A DNA stretch of 35,485 nucleotides, from contig JABIFP010000005.1 in assembly GCA_018650645.1 (NCBI GenBank), positions 1-35,485 on the forward strand, written 5' to 3'. Below, one piece after another: positions 731 to 33,106 of the stretch; the first letter of the stretch is position 1; each line of letters opens with the position of its first letter. The notes beneath the pieces are model-generated. The model had not been told where the DNA came from, did no database searches, and saw nothing but the letters and a program-made list of their open reading frames with translations. The translations under genes were made by a program, and so were the position numbers. The stretch comes from Candidatus Magasanikiibacteriota bacterium (GTDB taxonomy: Bacteria; Patescibacteriota; Patescibacteriia; Magasanikbacterales; UBA922).

Positions 731-1591
731 TTAGAGAATGATGCTCTCTGGCGTATCGTCTGCTTTTTTTTCTATGATATATGTATCAGCCCCATATTCA
801 TCCTTACCAATATGTTCCGCTTCTCCGCGGAATATCTTTTCATATGGCTCGCAGGCATAACACCCCTCTTTAGGACAGCTGAATTTTTTTAACTGCCGTG
901 CAAGTTTTATTTTTAACGCAATGTCATATACTTTTTTTTGCGCTTCTTCCAAACTCGGTAATTCTTTTTCTGTAAGAGAATCGTTTGATTCCACATACCA
1001 ATAGCTTGCCCGAGCTACTTTTCTTTTTTGACAATTGTGCACCAGCAAATGATAAATCGGTAGCTGCAATGATGCAGCATCCTCTTTTTCTTTTCCCGTT
1101 TTAAAATCAATAATATGTACGGCATCTTCTTCTGGAAGATATTCGAGCCAATCCACCTTTCCGCATAAAATGATGTTTTCTTCTTCACTGAGCCAATAAA
1201 ATGGTAAGTCTTGCTGAATTTTTACCGCCAGCCTGGTAATTGGGCCTGGGTTTTCCATAACCCGTCTAATCATGGCTCTTCCTCTATTTTGATATTGCAA
1301 TTCTGTCTGCATATCAAAAAATCCACCTTTCTTTCCTTTCACTCTTTCCCAAGCCTTATCAAATTTTTCCATGAGTGGATCTGACAACCGTTTTTCTGTT
1401 GGTAGTACCGAAAGCGATTCAAGCACTTCATGAACAACCTGCCCAAGCGCAAGCGGTGGAGACATCAGTTTCATCTTACTGTTTGTCTTTGGGTCTTTAT
1501 ATACATTTTTTAAGTAGTACGATCTTGGGCACTGCAAAAAAGAAGAAATTGACGAATGTGACACCCACGTTGCGGTAAATTTATCTGGCAT
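731..1591 (-). CDS. PD-(D/E)XK nuclease of the Cas4/AddB (RecB-like) type with a Cys cluster
   Basis: A 286-aa protein with the layout of RecB-family (PDDEXK_1) nucleases. The N-terminal motif SSISSFLQCPRSYYLKNV contains Cys21. GQVVHEVLE supplies His54, GKVDWLE supplies Asp147, and IIDFKTGK supplies Asp162 and Lys164, the metal-binding D-x-K core. QLPIYHLLV is the QxxxY-type motif. C-terminal Cys239, Cys244 and Cys247 together with Cys21 form the four-cysteine set that holds a 4Fe-4S cluster in Cas4 and AddB. The predicted role is DNA exonuclease or end processing. No cas genes, repeats or helicase partner are nearby, so it is probably a repair enzyme rather than a CRISPR component. A likely -10 (TATACT near 1755) lies beyond the inverted-repeat element at 1616-1736, which would place that element in the 5' leader. 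Confidence 0.85.
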   Translation of the reverse strand: MPDKFTATWVSHSSISSFLQCPRSYYLKNVYKDPKTNSKMKLMSPPLALGQVVHEVLESLSVLPTEKRLSDPLMEKFDKAWERVKGKKGGFFDMQTELQYQNRGRAMIRRVMENPGPITRLAVKIQQDLPFYWLSEEENIILCGKVDWLEYLPEEDAVHIIDFKTGKEKEDAASLQLPIYHLLVHNCQKRKVARASYWYVESNDSLTEKELPSLEEAQKKVYDIALKIKLARQLKKFSCPKEGCYACEPYEKIFRGEAEHIGKDEYGADTYIIEKKADDTPESIIL

Positions 1592-1615
1592 AGAAAACGG
1601 TTACATATGTCTTAA

Positions 1616-1736
1616 TGTCATCCTGAGCAACCTCGAATGAAACTCGGGGCGTCGAAGGATCTCAAAATACAATAAAGCCCTGTCAATCCTTCAACGCCCC
1701 ATTTCACTTCGTTCACTGAGGTTGTTCAGGATGACA
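1616..1736. repeat. Imperfect inverted-repeat (MITE-like) element
   Basis: The left arm starts at TGTCATCCTGAGCAACCTC (1616) and runs through GGGGCGTCGAAGGAT to 1660. The right arm (1687-1736) is its reverse complement with an insertion of about 5 bases and a few mismatches. About 26 AT-rich bases separate the arms. The GTCATCCTGAGC...GAAGGAT signature resembles short palindromic intergenic repeats dispersed in many bacterial genomes. It sits between the nuclease gene and its likely promoter. Confidence 0.6.
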
Positions 1737-1828
1737 GGTTGTAGAGCTAAGTATAACACAGGGGCGCAGCATGAATAGTGGACGCTTGTTCTCTTGGCGT
1801 TTTTAACCCGATATGAAAATTGAGTATG

Positions 1829-1854
1829 AAAAAACCCACATCTTGCGACGTGGG
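1829..1854 (-). terminator. Terminator of the high-GC lipoprotein gene
   Basis: On the minus strand CCCACGT and ATGTGGG (7 bp with one G-T pair) enclose CGCAAG and are followed by six T. It lies about 100 bases beyond the stop codon at 1955, after a series of other hairpins. Confidence 0.7.
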
Positions 1855-1886
1855 CTGGCTTTGCGCGACCGGGTGGCCGCAAGCGA

Positions 1887-1949
1887 CTCCTACTTACGTA
1901 GGAGGAACCGGTATCGCAACCGGATCTTCCGAATCTCCGCTTTGCGGAG
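1887..1949 (-). other. Three tandem perfect hairpins in the 3' UTR of the lipoprotein gene
   Basis: Between the stop codon at 1955 and the terminator at 1829-1854 the minus-strand RNA can form CTCCGC/GCGGAG with an AAA loop (1935-1949), CCGGT/ACCGG with a 6-base loop (1908-1923), and CTCCTAC/GTAGGAG with a GTAA tetraloop of the GNRA type (1887-1904). TGCG in the second loop is complementary to CGCA in the terminator loop, so a loop-loop contact is possible. Confidence 0.5.
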
Positions 1950-1954
1950 TGGCT

Positions 1955-3169
1955 TTACTTGCACCCTCGCTCACCAAGGGCGGCGCGGGCGTTTTGCTCG
2001 AATGCGCTCCCCAGCTTGAATCGCCGGGTCACGTCGAGCGCGCTGCAGAAGCGGGCCTTCCCGTGAAGTTCCCGGAAAATCTTCTGCGCGTGCTCGGGCT
2101 GCCCAAGGCCCATGTTGACGGACAGCCAGGCCGCGCGCCAGGTGGCATCCTTGCCCAGAGAGAAGCTGTTGAAGGGAACCTTCACCAACACCTTCTTGGG
2201 CTGCAGCAGCTGCGGAGCAGCGCCAGGAACCTTGCGAGTACGAACCCGCCTCTCCTCCCGGTGGGTCATGAAGAGGTCCTTCTTGAGAACCAACTTCACC
2301 GCCTTGTTGGCGGTATCGATGACCTCCACCTTCTTGAAGAGAGTGGGGTTCTCTTTCGCAAGCCTGGCAGCAAGCGCGAGGCCCACCACTTTGCGCGTCG
2401 TCAACCGATGGTCCCAGAGCTGGCGACTCATGGAGAAAACCCAGTACACTTCTGGGGCGGCACTGTCTCCGATGTCCTCGAACACGCCGCGAGTGCTGAC
2501 CGCCACGAACGCGCCCCACACATCGCGAGCATCCTTCCCCAAGAGGGCCGGCGCGAATACGTGGACCGTTCCGCTTTCAGCACGCAAAAGCGACCAGTAG
2601 CAGATCCTGAGGATCGGCTGCGGGAGCCCGTCCTTGCGAACCGGCAGGTTGTGCTTGATTCGCCCCACCACCTTTTCACAGGCGCTGCGCCAATCGTAGG
2701 TCCACGACTGGCTGGGCATCTCCACCGGTTCGGGGGAGGTGAGCTTGGCGGCCTTGGGGAGGTCCGCCAGGTGGGCAACGGCCTGGGGCATGCCCCGGAA
2801 GAACGCCACCACCGGCTGACCCGAGTGGGTCCGCTGGAGATGCCGCTTCAGGCGACGGCCGGCCGTAACCGCTTCCGAGTTCGGGAAGAAGCGCACGCAC
2901 TTGCTGAGCGCCTTCTCGAAGCTCGGGAGCTCCTGGTTTACCTTCACGCAGACCGGCCGGCCGGCCATCGAGATCTGCGCGGCATCGGCGTAGGACACGC
3001 CAGTGGGCTGCCGCTTGGCAGAATCCGCCGCGGGGGCGAGCCAGGCAGCCTTCTTCTTGGCCGGGGCCTTGCGGGCCGCGACCGGCTTCGTTGCGGGAGC
3101 GGGCCTAGGCGCCGCTCCACAGCCAGCCACCAAAACGGTGGCGACAATCATCAGTACGGTACGCAACAT
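1955..3169 (-). CDS. High-GC predicted lipoprotein, function unknown
   Basis: A 404-aa protein with a lipoprotein signal: MLRTVLMIVATVLVAGCG has a hydrophobic core and an LVAG-C lipobox, so Cys17 would be lipidated and the protein membrane-anchored outside the cytoplasm. An Ala/Pro/Lys-rich linker (about residues 19-60) follows, then a region of roughly 330 residues without a family I can name. The start is firm: AAAGGAGGT lies 4 bases before the ATG and a promoter is at 3247-3275. GC is very high and codons end mostly in G or C, unlike the AT-rich core genes. The leader contains an inverted repeat (CATATC/GATATG, about 3203-3216), and the 3' end carries several hairpins. Recent acquisition or strong expression selection are both possible. 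Confidence 0.8.
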   Translation of the reverse strand: MLRTVLMIVATVLVAGCGAAPRPAPATKPVAARKAPAKKKAAWLAPAADSAKRQPTGVSYADAAQISMAGRPVCVKVNQELPSFEKALSKCVRFFPNSEAVTAGRRLKRHLQRTHSGQPVVAFFRGMPQAVAHLADLPKAAKLTSPEPVEMPSQSWTYDWRSACEKVVGRIKHNLPVRKDGLPQPILRICYWSLLRAESGTVHVFAPALLGKDARDVWGAFVAVSTRGVFEDIGDSAAPEVYWVFSMSRQLWDHRLTTRKVVGLALAARLAKENPTLFKKVEVIDTANKAVKLVLKKDLFMTHREERRVRTRKVPGAAPQLLQPKKVLVKVPFNSFSLGKDATWRAAWLSVNMGLGQPEHAQKIFRELHGKARFCSALDVTRRFKLGSAFEQNARAALGERGCK

Positions 3170-3246
3170 GCATACCTCCTTTCATTGGGGTTCTCTCTAT
3201 ATCATATCGAGATATGAGACAAAAAGCACCCCAGAAAGGACAGAAG

Positions 3247-3275
3247 ACTATACCATAAAATAGCCCTTTTGTCAA
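3247..3275 (-). promoter_or_regulatory. Strong promoter of the lipoprotein gene
   Basis: TTGACA (3270-3275), 17 bases, then TATAGT (3247-3252) on the minus strand. The predicted leader of about 70 nt contains GGGGT/ACCCC outer and CATATC/GATATG inner complementary segments, which could be a stabilising stem or an operator, and ends in a perfect SD. Confidence 0.75.
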
Positions 3276-3317
3276 CCCCCTTACCCACAGGGCAAAAAAG
3301 AGAACACTCATCCACTA

Positions 3318-3347
3318 TTGGCAAATACGACCTCTGCAGTCTATACT
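3318..3347 (+). promoter_or_regulatory. Promoter of the DUF1059 gene
   Basis: TTGGCA (3318-3323), 18 bases, TATACT (3342-3347), about 25 bases before the ATG at 3373. No SD is visible before that ATG. Confidence 0.55.
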
Positions 3348-3372
3348 CAATACCTACTCATAACGCATATAT

Positions 3373-3591
3373 ATGAAAAAGGTATCATGTAACGTGTTCA
3401 CTGACGGAAAATCTGAATGTGACTTCGAAATCACAGGAGAAACCGCTGAGGAAATGGGATCAAACGGAAAACCTCATTGCATGGAAGCTCACCCAGAGCT
3501 CGTAGAAGCTTGGAAAAACATGCCCAAAGAAGAAGCTGAAAAGTGGTATAAAGAATTTGAAGCAAATTTTGCAAATTTGGAGGACGCTTAG
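3373..3591 (+). CDS. Small DUF1059-like protein
   Basis: A 72-aa acidic protein. The N-terminal half (MKKVSC, then CDFEITGETAEEM) matches the usual pattern of DUF1059, annotated in databases as predicted small metal-binding proteins. Cys6, Cys17 and the His/Cys pair near residues 35-36 are plausible metal ligands. The C-terminal half is helical and rich in Glu, Lys and Trp. It is a single-gene transcription unit with its own promoter and a strong terminator just after the stop. No neighbour indicates a specific job. Confidence 0.65.
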   Translation: MKKVSCNVFTDGKSECDFEITGETAEEMGSNGKPHCMEAHPELVEAWKNMPKEEAEKWYKEFEANFANLEDA

Positions 3592-22611: not shown

Positions 22612-22866
22612 AATCGCTCTAATACAGATACAAAAAGAAACAATGTACGTCCATTTGCTTCCTGAAAGGTGCTTTTTACGGCTTTTTATATTGTTTTTGC
22701 TTCTTTTTCAGTTCGTGAGGTCATCATAGCACAAGAGTTGCAATTAAAAAAACGCTTAAATAAGCACAAAAGTTAGTAAAATGGGGATAAGGTGTGGATA
22801 TAGTGGATAACTTTGCAATAATTAGCCAATTTTTATTTTCATCATAAAGTTTTCCATGTGGACGCC
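22612..22866. other. dnaA-rpmH intergenic region
   Basis: AT-rich spacer. TGTGGATAT (22793-22801) and AGTGGATAA (22802-22810) are adjacent one-mismatch DnaA boxes read on the minus strand; they could serve dnaA autoregulation or the origin. TATGAT (22723-22728, minus) may be the dnaA -10. No gene seen. Confidence 0.45.
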
Positions 22867-30278: not shown

Positions 30279-30713
30279 CTAGTGGCGCGGCTGGTGCAAT
30301 GTATAAAAAATCATTCCCGCCCCAATAACGATAAGCAGATCGGCGACATTCATAATGGACGTAATAACGCGCAGATAGTCTACGGTATATTCAAAGATGA
30401 CTCGATCAATAAGATTAGAAAGTGCGCCAGCACAGATGAGTGCAACACCTGTGGTAAAGAGCAGGGTCCGCTTAGATTGTGTGTGCCAGGCAAGAAGCAA
30501 AATAACAATAATTGGTGTTACCACAATAAGCAGCGTATTTGGCACAGGAATACCAAACGCAACACCGGGGTTTGCAAGAAACTCCCACCCCAGCCACGGT
30601 TCAATAATATAGTGCGTGACTGATTGATGCGTTCTTGCAACATACTTCAGCCCTTGGTCAATGAAAAACAAAACACCTGTTACAAAAAAGATGTACAGGT
30701 GTTTGCGTTTCAT
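30279..30713 (-). CDS. lspA: Lipoprotein signal peptidase (signal peptidase II)
   Basis: A 144-aa protein with four membrane helices. The conserved parts are FFIDQGLKYVA, NPGVAFGIP, ALSNLIDRV (first catalytic Asp) and MNVADLLIVIG (second catalytic Asp). It cleaves prolipoproteins before the lipidated Cys; the lipoprotein at 1955-3169 is a possible client. It lies 9 bases after the DksA/TraR gene, on the same strand, and probably shares its transcript. A DksA-like gene next to lspA is also known in Firmicutes. Confidence 0.95.
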   Translation of the reverse strand: MKRKHLYIFFVTGVLFFIDQGLKYVARTHQSVTHYIIEPWLGWEFLANPGVAFGIPVPNTLLIVVTPIIVILLLAWHTQSKRTLLFTTGVALICAGALSNLIDRVIFEYTVDYLRVITSIMNVADLLIVIGAGMIFYTLHQPRH

Positions 30714-30722
30714 AAGAAATTG

Positions 30723-31115
30723 TTAAGCTTCCTGGGTCAGTGTTTTTTTGCAAGAAACACAAGAGCCTGATGTTGGCCGTGCTTGCAATCGTTTTTCTGC
30801 AATTGGTTCTTCGCAGTATTTGCAGATGCCGTATGTTTTTTCTTCAATACGTTGGAGTGATTTACCAATATCTCGGAGTTCTTTCTCCATAGCCATTTCG
30901 AGCGGCTTGTTTGCGGTGAAGTCTGCGATTTCTCTTGCATTTTCATCGTCTTCATTTCCGTATTCTGGAAAATTGGCATTATATTCACCATCAACATGGG
31001 CATCTTTGCTTGCAAAGTTGGACAATTCTTCTGTCAGCTTGATTTTCTTTGCTTCAAGTGCGGTTTTCATATCCGCCAAGAATGCTTCATCGTGTTTCGT
31101 ATTTGCCATATGCAT
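30723..31115 (-). CDS. DksA/TraR C4-type zinc-finger protein
   Basis: 130 aa. Helical N-terminal two thirds with an acidic patch (EYGNEDDENAREIADF), then a four-Cys zinc finger CKYCEEPIAEKRLQARPTSG followed by CVSCK. The family binds the RNA polymerase secondary channel and adjusts initiation. The start is ATG at 31115 or the in-frame ATG at 31109. The promoter at 31132-31160 leaves a leader of only about 10 nt. Confidence 0.9.
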   Translation of the reverse strand: MHMANTKHDEAFLADMKTALEAKKIKLTEELSNFASKDAHVDGEYNANFPEYGNEDDENAREIADFTANKPLEMAMEKELRDIGKSLQRIEEKTYGICKYCEEPIAEKRLQARPTSGSCVSCKKTLTQEA

Positions 31116-31131
31116 GTATTAATTCGGAAGT

Positions 31132-31160
31132 AGTATACGATGAACACCTCGGATTGACAA
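31132..31160 (-). promoter_or_regulatory. Promoter of the dksA-like gene and lspA
   Basis: TTGTCA (31155-31160), 17 bases, TATACT (31132-31137). It lies directly behind the terminator of the structured RNA, so the two units are separate. Confidence 0.7.
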
Positions 31161-31179
31161 GGGAGATCAAAATTTTTGT

Positions 31180-31675
31180 AAAAGAAAAAGCGGACATCGC
31201 CTCGTACAAATAGATTTGTAGGCTAGTCCGCCTTCCGCTCGCCTGTTGGCGATTACCCGATGTTGTGCCACGAAGTTTCATGGCGCTACACTGGGTAACC
31301 GTCAAACAATTTGGAGCGAATGTAATGACCCTTCCACCGCTCAGAGGTGATAATGTTCGGAGACACATCTCAAGGATGTGACCATATATGAACGTCACCA
31401 AAACTATCGGTATTGCTCTGCTTCGGTCTTGTTTTACCTTTGTCTTTGTTTTGGTCCTGCTACCATATTAGGGAACTGCCATGAAAGGCGCTCAACCATA
31501 TAGGTGGTACTACCTGTGAAGGCGTACTCTGAGGGAAGCAAGGTAAAACCGACAATCAATAGAGTAGTTGAAAAGGGAAACTCTGTGCGTAACAAGTGTA
31601 TACGCAGAGAATTTCTGTCGGTTGTGTTAAAGAGCGATTGCTGCGGCACACTTGGATAGGTGCTGCTTTGATTCT
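31180..31675 (-). ncRNA. Candidate ~500-nt structured non-coding RNA
   Basis: A minus-strand transcript is bounded by a strong promoter (31682-31710) and a compound hairpin GCGGAC...GTCCGC (31190-31231) with a second stem inside and TTTTTCTTTT after. In between many perfect or near-perfect helices are visible: AACCGACA/TGTCGGTT (31547-31554 with 31616-31623) enclosing CTCTG..CAGAG; ACCAAAAC/GTTTTGGT (31397-31404 with 31448-31455); GTGAC/GTCAC (31378-31398); CACATC/GATGTG; TTACCC/GGGTAA (31253-31258 with 31293-31298) enclosing GCCACG/CATGGC; and TCGCC/GGCGA. Short frames in both strands lack SDs and normal protein composition. I tested it by eye against tmRNA, RNase P RNA and SRP RNA signatures without a match. 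Identity unknown. Confidence 0.55.
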
Positions 31676-31681
31676 GTATAT

Positions 31682-31710
31682 ACTATAGCACAAAAAACGG
31701 GTTTTGTCAA
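31682..31710 (-). promoter_or_regulatory. Promoter of the structured RNA
   Basis: TTGACA (31705-31710), 17 bases, TATAGT (31682-31687), a strong match with no gene reading frame behind it. Confidence 0.8.
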
Positions 31711-31799
31711 TGGGCTTATATTTGCCTTAGTTTAGCGCAGAAAGCCGAGTACTTTAGGTGTTCATAGGCATTTTTACACCATTTTTCCCACAGGTTGTT

Positions 31800-32040
31800 A
31801 AATTTGGGTGGATAACCTCTCTTTTTTATCCACAGATTTGGCATGTTATACACAACCTTATGCACAATGAGCACGCTTGTGTATACAAACAGAGGTGTTT
31901 TGACCACCTCAACTGTGGACAAAATTGTTTAAAATCTGTGATTATGTAGGAAAGTGGCCAAAATGGGCTAATATTGGCTAGGGAAACGTTTGTCCCCAGA
32001 AGACGAGAGTTATCCCGAGAGTTATACACATTTTTGTATA
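31800..32040. other. Dense DnaA-box cluster: candidate replication origin
   Basis: Four exact TTATNCACA boxes on the plus strand: 31826-31834 (TTATCCACA), 31846-31854 (TTATACACA), 31858-31866 (TTATGCACA) and 32022-32030 (TTATACACA). One-mismatch boxes lie on the minus strand at 31807-31815, 31878-31886 and 31914-31922. AT-rich stretches at 31920-31945 and 32085-32120 could be unwinding elements. No gene lies in 31711-32152. Confidence 0.6.
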
Positions 32041-32114
32041 CGCCAGCCTATACAATGGCTAAATATGTGCAATAATTGAGCAAATCCACCTTTTTTTATA
32101 AACAAGCGAGTTAT

Positions 32115-32143
32115 TTGCTATTCAAACACGAAGCACTTATACT
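32115..32143 (+). promoter_or_regulatory. holA promoter (leaderless type)
   Basis: TTGCTA (32115-32120), 17 bases, TATACT (32138-32143), 9 bases before the ATG at 32153. No SD. Confidence 0.65.
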
Positions 32144-32152
32144 AGGCCCACT

Positions 32153-33106
32153 ATGATTATTTGTGTATACGGAAAAGATTCATATCGTGGATCGGTTCAG
32201 CTAAGAAAGATGGTAGAAAAATTCTCTCTGCAACGTGACCCACAGGGGTTGAATTTGGTGCAATTGCAGGGGAAAGGGTTAGCATACTCAACATTTGCTC
32301 AGGAAGTCTGTGCTTCACCATTTCTTGCCGAAAAGCGGATGGTGGTTGTGAAAGGGCTTATTGAAGACGGAAGTGATGATTTGATTGGAAGCGTGCAAAC
32401 ACTTTTTGAAAAAGGTGTTCCTGATACTACCGTTCTTATTTGTTTTGAACAGAAAGATACATTCAAAAAGAAAATACAAAAGACACTCTTTGCATCGCTT
32501 TGCGAGCAGAAATATGCGCAGCGGTTTGATATGCTCTCCGGAAGCGCTTTGCAAGGGTATATTGGCGCTGAAATTATAGAAAAAGGTGGTGCAATTCAGA
32601 AGGCGGCGGTGTTTACCCTGTCACGGCTCTTTGCCGAAGATATGTGGGGGCTTCATAACAGCATTGAGCAGTTGGTGGCGTATGCCCGTGGTAGAGAGAT
32701 CACAAACGAAGATGTACTAACATTTTGCGAAGAGCAGGCGCAAGATAATATTTTTGCTCTTGTAGATGCTATTTTGGGTAAAAACAAAAAGCAGATGGTG
32801 CAACTTCTTGAACAACAGTATAAGCAAGGGAAAGATGCGCTGTATGTATTTGCCATGGTGTTAAGACAGTTTCGCATCCATTTGCAGCTAAGAGATTGTG
32901 TGGATGCAAATATTACGCCTGATGCAAAGGCTATGGGGCTCCATCCGTATGTGGTAAAAAAAACACTACCTTCTGTGAGGCAGTATTCGATGGATAGACT
33001 AACAGGAATTTATAAGGATCTACTTATAGTGGATACCCGAATTAAAACGGGCGTATTGCCTGCAAACATAGCTGTTGAGCGGCTTTTGGCGCAGTGTGTT
33101 GCTTAA
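32153..33106 (+). CDS. holA: DNA polymerase III delta subunit
   Basis: 317 aa, normal for HolA. It starts MIICVYGKDSYRGSVQLRKM, the family's start, in which the Walker-like site is degenerate. FLAEKRMVVVKGL and the C-terminal LYVFAMVLRQFRIHLQLRDC helices match the delta fold. Residue blocks 1-140 (AAA+-like), 140-210 and 210-317 fit its three domains. It is the clamp-loader wrench that opens the DnaN ring. Its stop codon overlaps the stop of the convergent gene at 33103-33423 by a few bases. Confidence 0.9.
   Translation: MIICVYGKDSYRGSVQLRKMVEKFSLQRDPQGLNLVQLQGKGLAYSTFAQEVCASPFLAEKRMVVVKGLIEDGSDDLIGSVQTLFEKGVPDTTVLICFEQKDTFKKKIQKTLFASLCEQKYAQRFDMLSGSALQGYIGAEIIEKGGAIQKAAVFTLSRLFAEDMWGLHNSIEQLVAYARGREITNEDVLTFCEEQAQDNIFALVDAILGKNKKQMVQLLEQQYKQGKDALYVFAMVLRQFRIHLQLRDCVDANITPDAKAMGLHPYVVKKTLPSVRQYSMDRLTGIYKDLLIVDTRIKTGVLPANIAVERLLAQCVA

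Follow-up and report, generated by a model that had tools for sequence, protein, structure and literature searches.

Genomic context and architecture of the RNA gene

The window, i.e., the whole 35,485-nucleotide stretch of Candidatus Magasanikiibacteriota DNA that was analysed, carries a group of DnaA boxes and, further down on the minus strand, a dksA/traR zinc-finger gene and lspA. Between them, the minus strand at 31180-31676 appears to encode a standalone RNA with a promoter, a boxA-like leader, a multi-helix core and an extended terminator hairpin. The following features were assigned, listed from the origin side in the direction of transcription of the RNA.

32035-32054, either strand: 20-bp palindrome TGTATA-N8-TATACA, putative origin module, present in 40/46 related loci
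32022-32030, plus strand: DnaA box TTATACACA, by motif
31858-31866, plus strand: DnaA box TTATGCACA, by motif
31846-31854, plus strand: DnaA box TTATACACA, by motif
31826-31834, plus strand: DnaA box TTATCCACA, by motif
31682-31710, minus strand: RNA promoter, TTGACA-17-TATAGT with TG before the -10 element, by site scan; similar promoter in 46 related loci
31180-31676, minus strand: RNA gene, about 497 nt, start placed from the promoter
31621-31635, minus strand: boxA-like leader GCTCTTTAACACAAC, by motif reading
31577-31615, minus strand: P1 hairpin, by folding
31562-31577, minus strand: P2 5' strand CCCTTTTCAACTACTC, by covariance-model alignment and covariation
31540-31555, minus strand: P3 5' strand, by covariance-model alignment and covariation
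31437-31452, minus strand: A-rich unpaired tract AAAACAAAGACAAAGG, conserved in the family as AAAACAAAAACAAAA
31405-31416, minus strand: P3 3' strand, by covariance-model alignment, register uncertain in the window copy
31346-31399, minus strand: P4 stem-loop GGTGA...TCACC, by covariance-model alignment and covariation
31329-31342, minus strand: P2 3' strand GAGCGGTGGAAGGG, by covariance-model alignment and strand-pairing test
31313-31320, minus strand: P7 5' strand, closing the P8 domain, assigned by eye
31250-31301, minus strand: P8 long hairpin, by folding; covaries in relatives
31231-31240, minus strand: P7 3' strand, assigned by eye
31180-31234, minus strand: terminator hairpin with internal loop and T-run, ending in TTTTTCTTTT, by folding and in relatives
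31132-31160, minus strand: separate promoter of the dksA-like gene, TTGTCA-17-TATACT, by site scan
30723-31115, minus strand: dksA/traR zinc-finger gene, conserved downstream neighbour outside the RNA, by Pfam and synteny
30279-30713, minus strand: lspA, conserved second neighbour, by Pfam and synteny

A first-pass annotation of the DNA letters had described a near-perfect promoter, a compound terminator and many helices beside a DnaA-box cluster, in a stretch of about 500 nt lacking plausible genes. Each of these elements was found. The promoter (TTGACA-N17-TATAGT, minus strand 31710-31682) has 11 of 12 consensus bases and a TG preceding its -10 element, and was the best of six promoter-like sites in the region 30600-32400; as 3.5 such sites are expected there by chance, a single promoter site is by itself weak evidence. 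The terminator was recovered as an extended hairpin with a T-run at 31234-31180, and the DnaA boxes begin at 31826, 31846, 31858 and 32022. The minus strand folded with a minimum free energy of -162.8 kcal/mol (z-score -6.3; 0 of 100 shuffled sequences were equally low), and seven elements could be assigned, namely P1, P2, P3, P4, P7, P8 and the terminator. The conserved P2 pairing is incomplete in the single-sequence fold of the window copy and became visible only with homologues, and the 3' strand of P3 has an alternative partner, AAGGTAAAACAAGACCGAA at 31422-31440, in this copy. The plus strand was also considered as the RNA and was rejected, its z-score being weaker (-3.8) and conserved U-G pairs favouring the minus strand.

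Homologues in Magasanikbacteria and sister families

When 59 relatives were searched directly at the DNA level, matches were essentially confined to the promoter and did not cover the RNA body; therefore, synteny was used instead. Reading around holA in relatives revealed three homologues, each located upstream of the dksA/traR zinc-finger gene followed by lspA. The gene holA, the neighbour on the other side, was itself dropped as a synteny anchor, as it is not always a neighbour of the RNA. The locus set was built by a DksA-like protein search, after which 1.3 kb upstream was read in each genome. This gave 46 loci in which a promoter close to consensus, in most cases with the TG extension, stands 400-830 bp before dksA; most of them have a second promoter close before dksA, and the median length of the predicted transcripts was ~390 nt. 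By synteny, homologues occur in most Magasanikbacteria (the named members are Candidatus Magasanikbacteria) and in sister families, and one Buchananbacteria locus and one Uhrbacteria locus looked similar by eye. At two loci, L083 (G049) and L096 (G045), dksA was present with no RNA upstream. In addition, an extended inverted repeat, AGGCCTGTCGCACAATGG ... CTATTGTGCGACAGACCT, lies in the leader of L105 (G038), within the RNA gene region; it is perhaps a small mobile element.

Conserved structure and covariation

Minimum-free-energy folds of individual homologues contained the same long-range helix, P2, in most members despite sequence divergence. Its consensus strands are CCCYUUUUACUGCUC and GAGCGGURGAARGGG, and divergent examples include GCTTTTTACTACAC with GTGTGGTAGAAGGC and ACATCTTTGACTGCTTT with AAAGTGGCAAAGATGT. 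RNAalifold applied to 11 members returned P2, enclosing P3 (with the A-rich loop AAAACAAAAACAAAA inside) and P4, with two-sided changes in 31 of 42 pairs. A covariance model, R1, was then made from these 11 relatives, leaving out the window copy. This model recovered the held-out copy at 31328-31577 (47.2 bits, E ~1e-9), and nothing as strong was found elsewhere in the window. In 15 held-out sequences, 90.9% of cells paired, compared with 71.9% in shuffled and 42-47% in slid controls; two-sided changes affected 35 of 42 pairs (22.2 in shuffles), and the covariation score was 0.522 (0.221 shuffled, at most 0.13 slid). None of 500 shuffles reached any of these measures. At the class level, the covariation score was 0.280 against 0.111 in the control. 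The first-pass annotation had suggested looking for covariation, and it proved strong in the homologues.

The alignments were fitted to the covariance model and hence lean towards its structure, a bias that is limited by the slide and shuffle controls and by a duplex test that compared P2 strands directly. Strands from the same genome paired better than strands from different genomes (-16.2 vs -12.4 kcal/mol; -18.1 vs -10.5 at the class level), which was reached in 0 of 10000 permutations. Similarly, the 3' domain, consisting of a small hairpin, P8 and the terminator with its internal loop, showed two-sided changes in 28 of 34 pairs. One P2 pair was U-G in all 28 sequences of alignment A4; this invariant wobble points to an RNA made from the minus strand, rather than to DNA or to an RNA of the other strand. 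The covarying architecture can be written as P1 - P2[P3 with A-rich loop, P4] - small hairpin - P8 - terminator. Taken from sequence comparison, these data constitute a very strong case for a real, conserved, standalone structured RNA.

Occurrence across Patescibacteria

A search of 286 genomes of the class with R1 yielded at least 13 hits from families that do not belong to the order; all of them have the A-rich loop, and a promoter and DnaA boxes could be made out upstream of most of these 13. Twelve of them were used for a second model, R2; when 380 genomes of the phylum were searched with it, other classes also yielded hits, of modest score (28-41 bits). When these were read individually, about a dozen had the A-rich loop and P2 together with a promoter or DnaA-like boxes. 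Locus L138 is a genuine family member, whereas L191, L197, L199 and L201 were doubtful by eye and were left out of the count. Recall was low, as the strict first screen missed even the window's own genome; the class and phylum tallies are thus lower bounds from which absence should not be read. Specificity of R1 was high: at E<=0.05, 822 kb from three genomes contained two hits and no more, namely the RNAs of G010 and of the window; the divergent G058 copy went undetected in the same search. The RNA was single-copy where checked. A weak R1 match at 22669-22767 of the window (19 bits) covers the P3/A-rich part only and is probably due to chance.

In several classes the RNA is often followed by dksA and lspA. 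Gene order is recA-RNA-dksA-lspA in G498, recA-RNA-dksA in G478, RNA-ORF-lspA in G601, RNA-lgt-dksA in G348 and pnp-RNA-dksA-comM in G333, and in G383 rnpA and yidC lie near the RNA. Sequence comparison shows a family core that is shared across the class and is also found, with weaker scores, in other classes of the phylum. This phylum-wide spread, the dksA-lspA synteny, the boxA-like leader and the fixed register to the origin all go beyond what the first-pass annotation described.

Association with the probable replication origin

In the order, each of the 46 loci carries DnaA boxes with no more than one mismatch in the 450 bp that precede the -35 element of the RNA. Strict boxes numbered 87 in these upstream regions, compared with 0.84 in shuffled sequences, and none fell within the transcripts. 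The palindrome TGTATA-N8-TATACA was found in 40 of the 46 loci (0.3 expected), often with a DnaA box directly after it, and recurred at fixed distances, mostly about -75 to -90 and -155 to -185 relative to the RNA -35 element. GC-skew minima were located within ~10 kb of the RNA in three genomes (286 kb vs 275.6 kb in G058, 122 kb vs 133 kb in G010, and 22-28 kb vs 31.7 kb on the contig of the window), and in G205 the skew changes sign at ~300 kb, within about 25 kb of the RNA at 325 kb. The boxes, the palindrome and the skew position together suggest that the locus is very probably the chromosomal oriC in this order.

This proximity raises the question of whether initiation at the neighbouring oriC is regulated by the transcript, or by its synthesis as such, by analogy with plasmid copy-control RNAs or with transcriptional activation of an origin. 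ColE1-type origins provide a familiar case of a structured RNA made beside a replication origin. The new RNA is likewise structured and made beside an origin; however, it is chromosomal, is transcribed away from the DnaA boxes and has no antisense partner that we could see. The universal boxes, the fixed register and the skew data in the order all fit such a role, as does G028, in which oriC and the RNA have stayed together while dksA lies elsewhere. On the other hand, transcription is directed away from the boxes, and in G498, a member of another class, the RNA lies 60-80 kb from the skew switch, after recA, indicating that the RNA family is not tied to the origin everywhere. We therefore consider it unlikely, albeit worth keeping in mind, that this phylum-wide RNA is a part of the chromosomal oriC in its order that helps to control initiation. 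If true, the oriC of a bacterial chromosome would itself include a structured RNA.

Relationship to dksA and lspA

The recurrence of a dksA-like gene, often with lspA, after the RNA in several classes leaves room for a cis-regulatory reading, in which a long 5' leader or an attenuator would control dksA-lspA. Such a leader would be expected to stay joined to dksA, and constant joining was not found. Inserted genes separate the RNA terminator from dksA in G044 and G040 (L100 and L102), and in G028 the origin boxes, promoter, boxA-like leader and terminator stand before lspA, with dksA on another contig with no RNA beside it (this RNA copy was identified by visual reading; R1 did not find it at E<=0.01). 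Moreover, in most genomes a terminator stands ahead of dksA, which also has a promoter of its own. Regulation of dksA-lspA in cis thus appears very unlikely, and a freestanding RNA remains the preferred reading.

Coding potential and known RNA families

The view that the region holds no plausible gene was borne out, since a 104-aa ORF overlapping the RNA had no Pfam match. No conserved coding frame was found in the 46 homologous transcripts either, their longest sense ORFs being no longer than those of shuffled sequences (47.6 vs 45.3 +/- 2.1 aa). Rfam models run on the whole window at gathering threshold identified no family at the RNA locus, and at E<=10 the locus gave only a 17.9-bit chance match. 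Searching 20 diverse homologues against all 4227 models of Rfam 15, including OLE, ROOL and GOLLD, likewise gave no match.

The first-pass annotation had seen no conserved core of tmRNA, RNase P RNA or SRP RNA, and this held for each of them. The RNase P RNA model with its conserved core (RF00010) and the tmRNA model with its tRNA-like ends (RF00023) were both unmatched at the locus, and the genome encodes these RNAs elsewhere (G000:C17, 169.6 bits, and G000:C29, 117.9 bits, respectively). No match to 6S RNA (RF00013) was detected at the locus or in the 20 homologues, the consensus being multi-branched with no bubbled rod. The SRP RNA models RF00169 and RF01854 found nothing at E<=0.1 in 29 relatives, a result that is weak alone because both also missed the B. 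subtilis control. The SRP domain-IV hairpin pattern was absent from 59 relatives, and the Ffh M domain (PF02978) was found in 0 of 12 relatives (the window's own genome, G001-G008 and G037-G039) with 14 of 14 controls positive. Identity with SRP RNA was accordingly dropped, as neither the RNA by two models nor the M domain was found and the lineage would offer no SRP partner. As an observation in its own right, the signal recognition particle seems to be missing from this lineage, with PF02978 in 0 of 12 genomes and no SRP RNA found by either model in 29.

A very divergent RNase P RNA, tmRNA, SRP RNA or 6S RNA would have just such a strong promoter, wide conservation and single copy, but with two of these encoded elsewhere, no SRP RNA or Ffh M domain in relatives, no Rfam match and an architecture unlike the single rod with a bubble by which 6S RNA is defined, this identity is most improbable. 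The RNA is counted as new on the grounds that it matches no known RNA family and has no known function. A description of it was not found in a search that covered published open-access papers, and the family is apparently undescribed.

The boxA-like leader and the proposed nature of the RNA

With a boxA consensus, a boxA-like 7-mer was found in the first 100 nt of 36 of the 46 order transcripts, compared with 3.7 in shuffles; in more distant loci the strict 7-mer was present in only 10 of 27. The 16S leader of G205, a member of the same class, carries GATCCTTACAAC. In E. coli rRNA, boxA is bound by NusB/NusE (PMC4807359, PMC5725501), and by analogy Nus factors may bind the leader of the new RNA. 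A boxA-like GATGCTCTTTAC also stands immediately ahead of the 5' end of the mature tmRNA encoded by the genome (L022); the RNase P RNA leader has none.

Considering all these observations, we regard the family as probably a new Patescibacteria family of standalone, trans-acting, highly transcribed structured RNA, likely the RNA part of a stable particle. We infer abundance from the promoter and the boxA-like leader, and action in trans from independence of neighbouring genes and depth of conservation. In such a scheme, RNA polymerase would start at about 31675, be modified at the boxA-like leader, as is known for rRNA, for efficient transcription of a long untranslated RNA, and stop at the terminator hairpin. 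The folded RNA would then act in trans, with likely binding or tertiary-contact sites at the A-rich tract and at the conserved centre of P2 (ACUGCU/AGCGGU). A promoter on the origin side would provide a high gene dose and might be under DnaA control, and transcription away from the DnaA boxes would leave negative supercoils at the origin. Candidate partners, suggested only by proximity, are RNA polymerase and the DksA-like neighbour.

Several known systems offer points of comparison. OLE, ROOL and GOLLD are likewise long, heavily structured and non-coding, with function unsettled (PMC12286853), but the new RNA matches none of them in Rfam and differs in architecture, host phylum and locus; it joins the heterogeneous large structured bacterial RNAs, e.g., OLE, only in the loosest sense, and is unrelated to any. 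Ms1 and 6S RNA, which bind RNA polymerase, are also untranslated and are recognised by synteny where sequence is weakly conserved (PMC9130861), whereas the new RNA is longer and multi-branched and lacks an open-promoter-like rod. As in the boxA antitermination system of rRNA leaders (PMC4807359, PMC5725501), a long RNA that is not translated has a boxA-like sequence close to its 5' end; the new RNA, however, is not an rRNA.

Very few stable structured RNAs are common to an entire bacterial phylum, and the hosts of this one, the ultra-small Patescibacteria (CPR bacteria), are among the largest and least understood bacterial groups. It persists in genomes apparently devoid of the signal recognition particle, offers work on Patescibacteria a definite object for metatranscriptomics, probing and genetics, and its locus marks the likely oriC of Magasanikbacteria and relatives. 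Elsewhere in the window, positions 1500-3500 are rich in GC (up to 0.64), and both strands carry long ORFs there that overlap.
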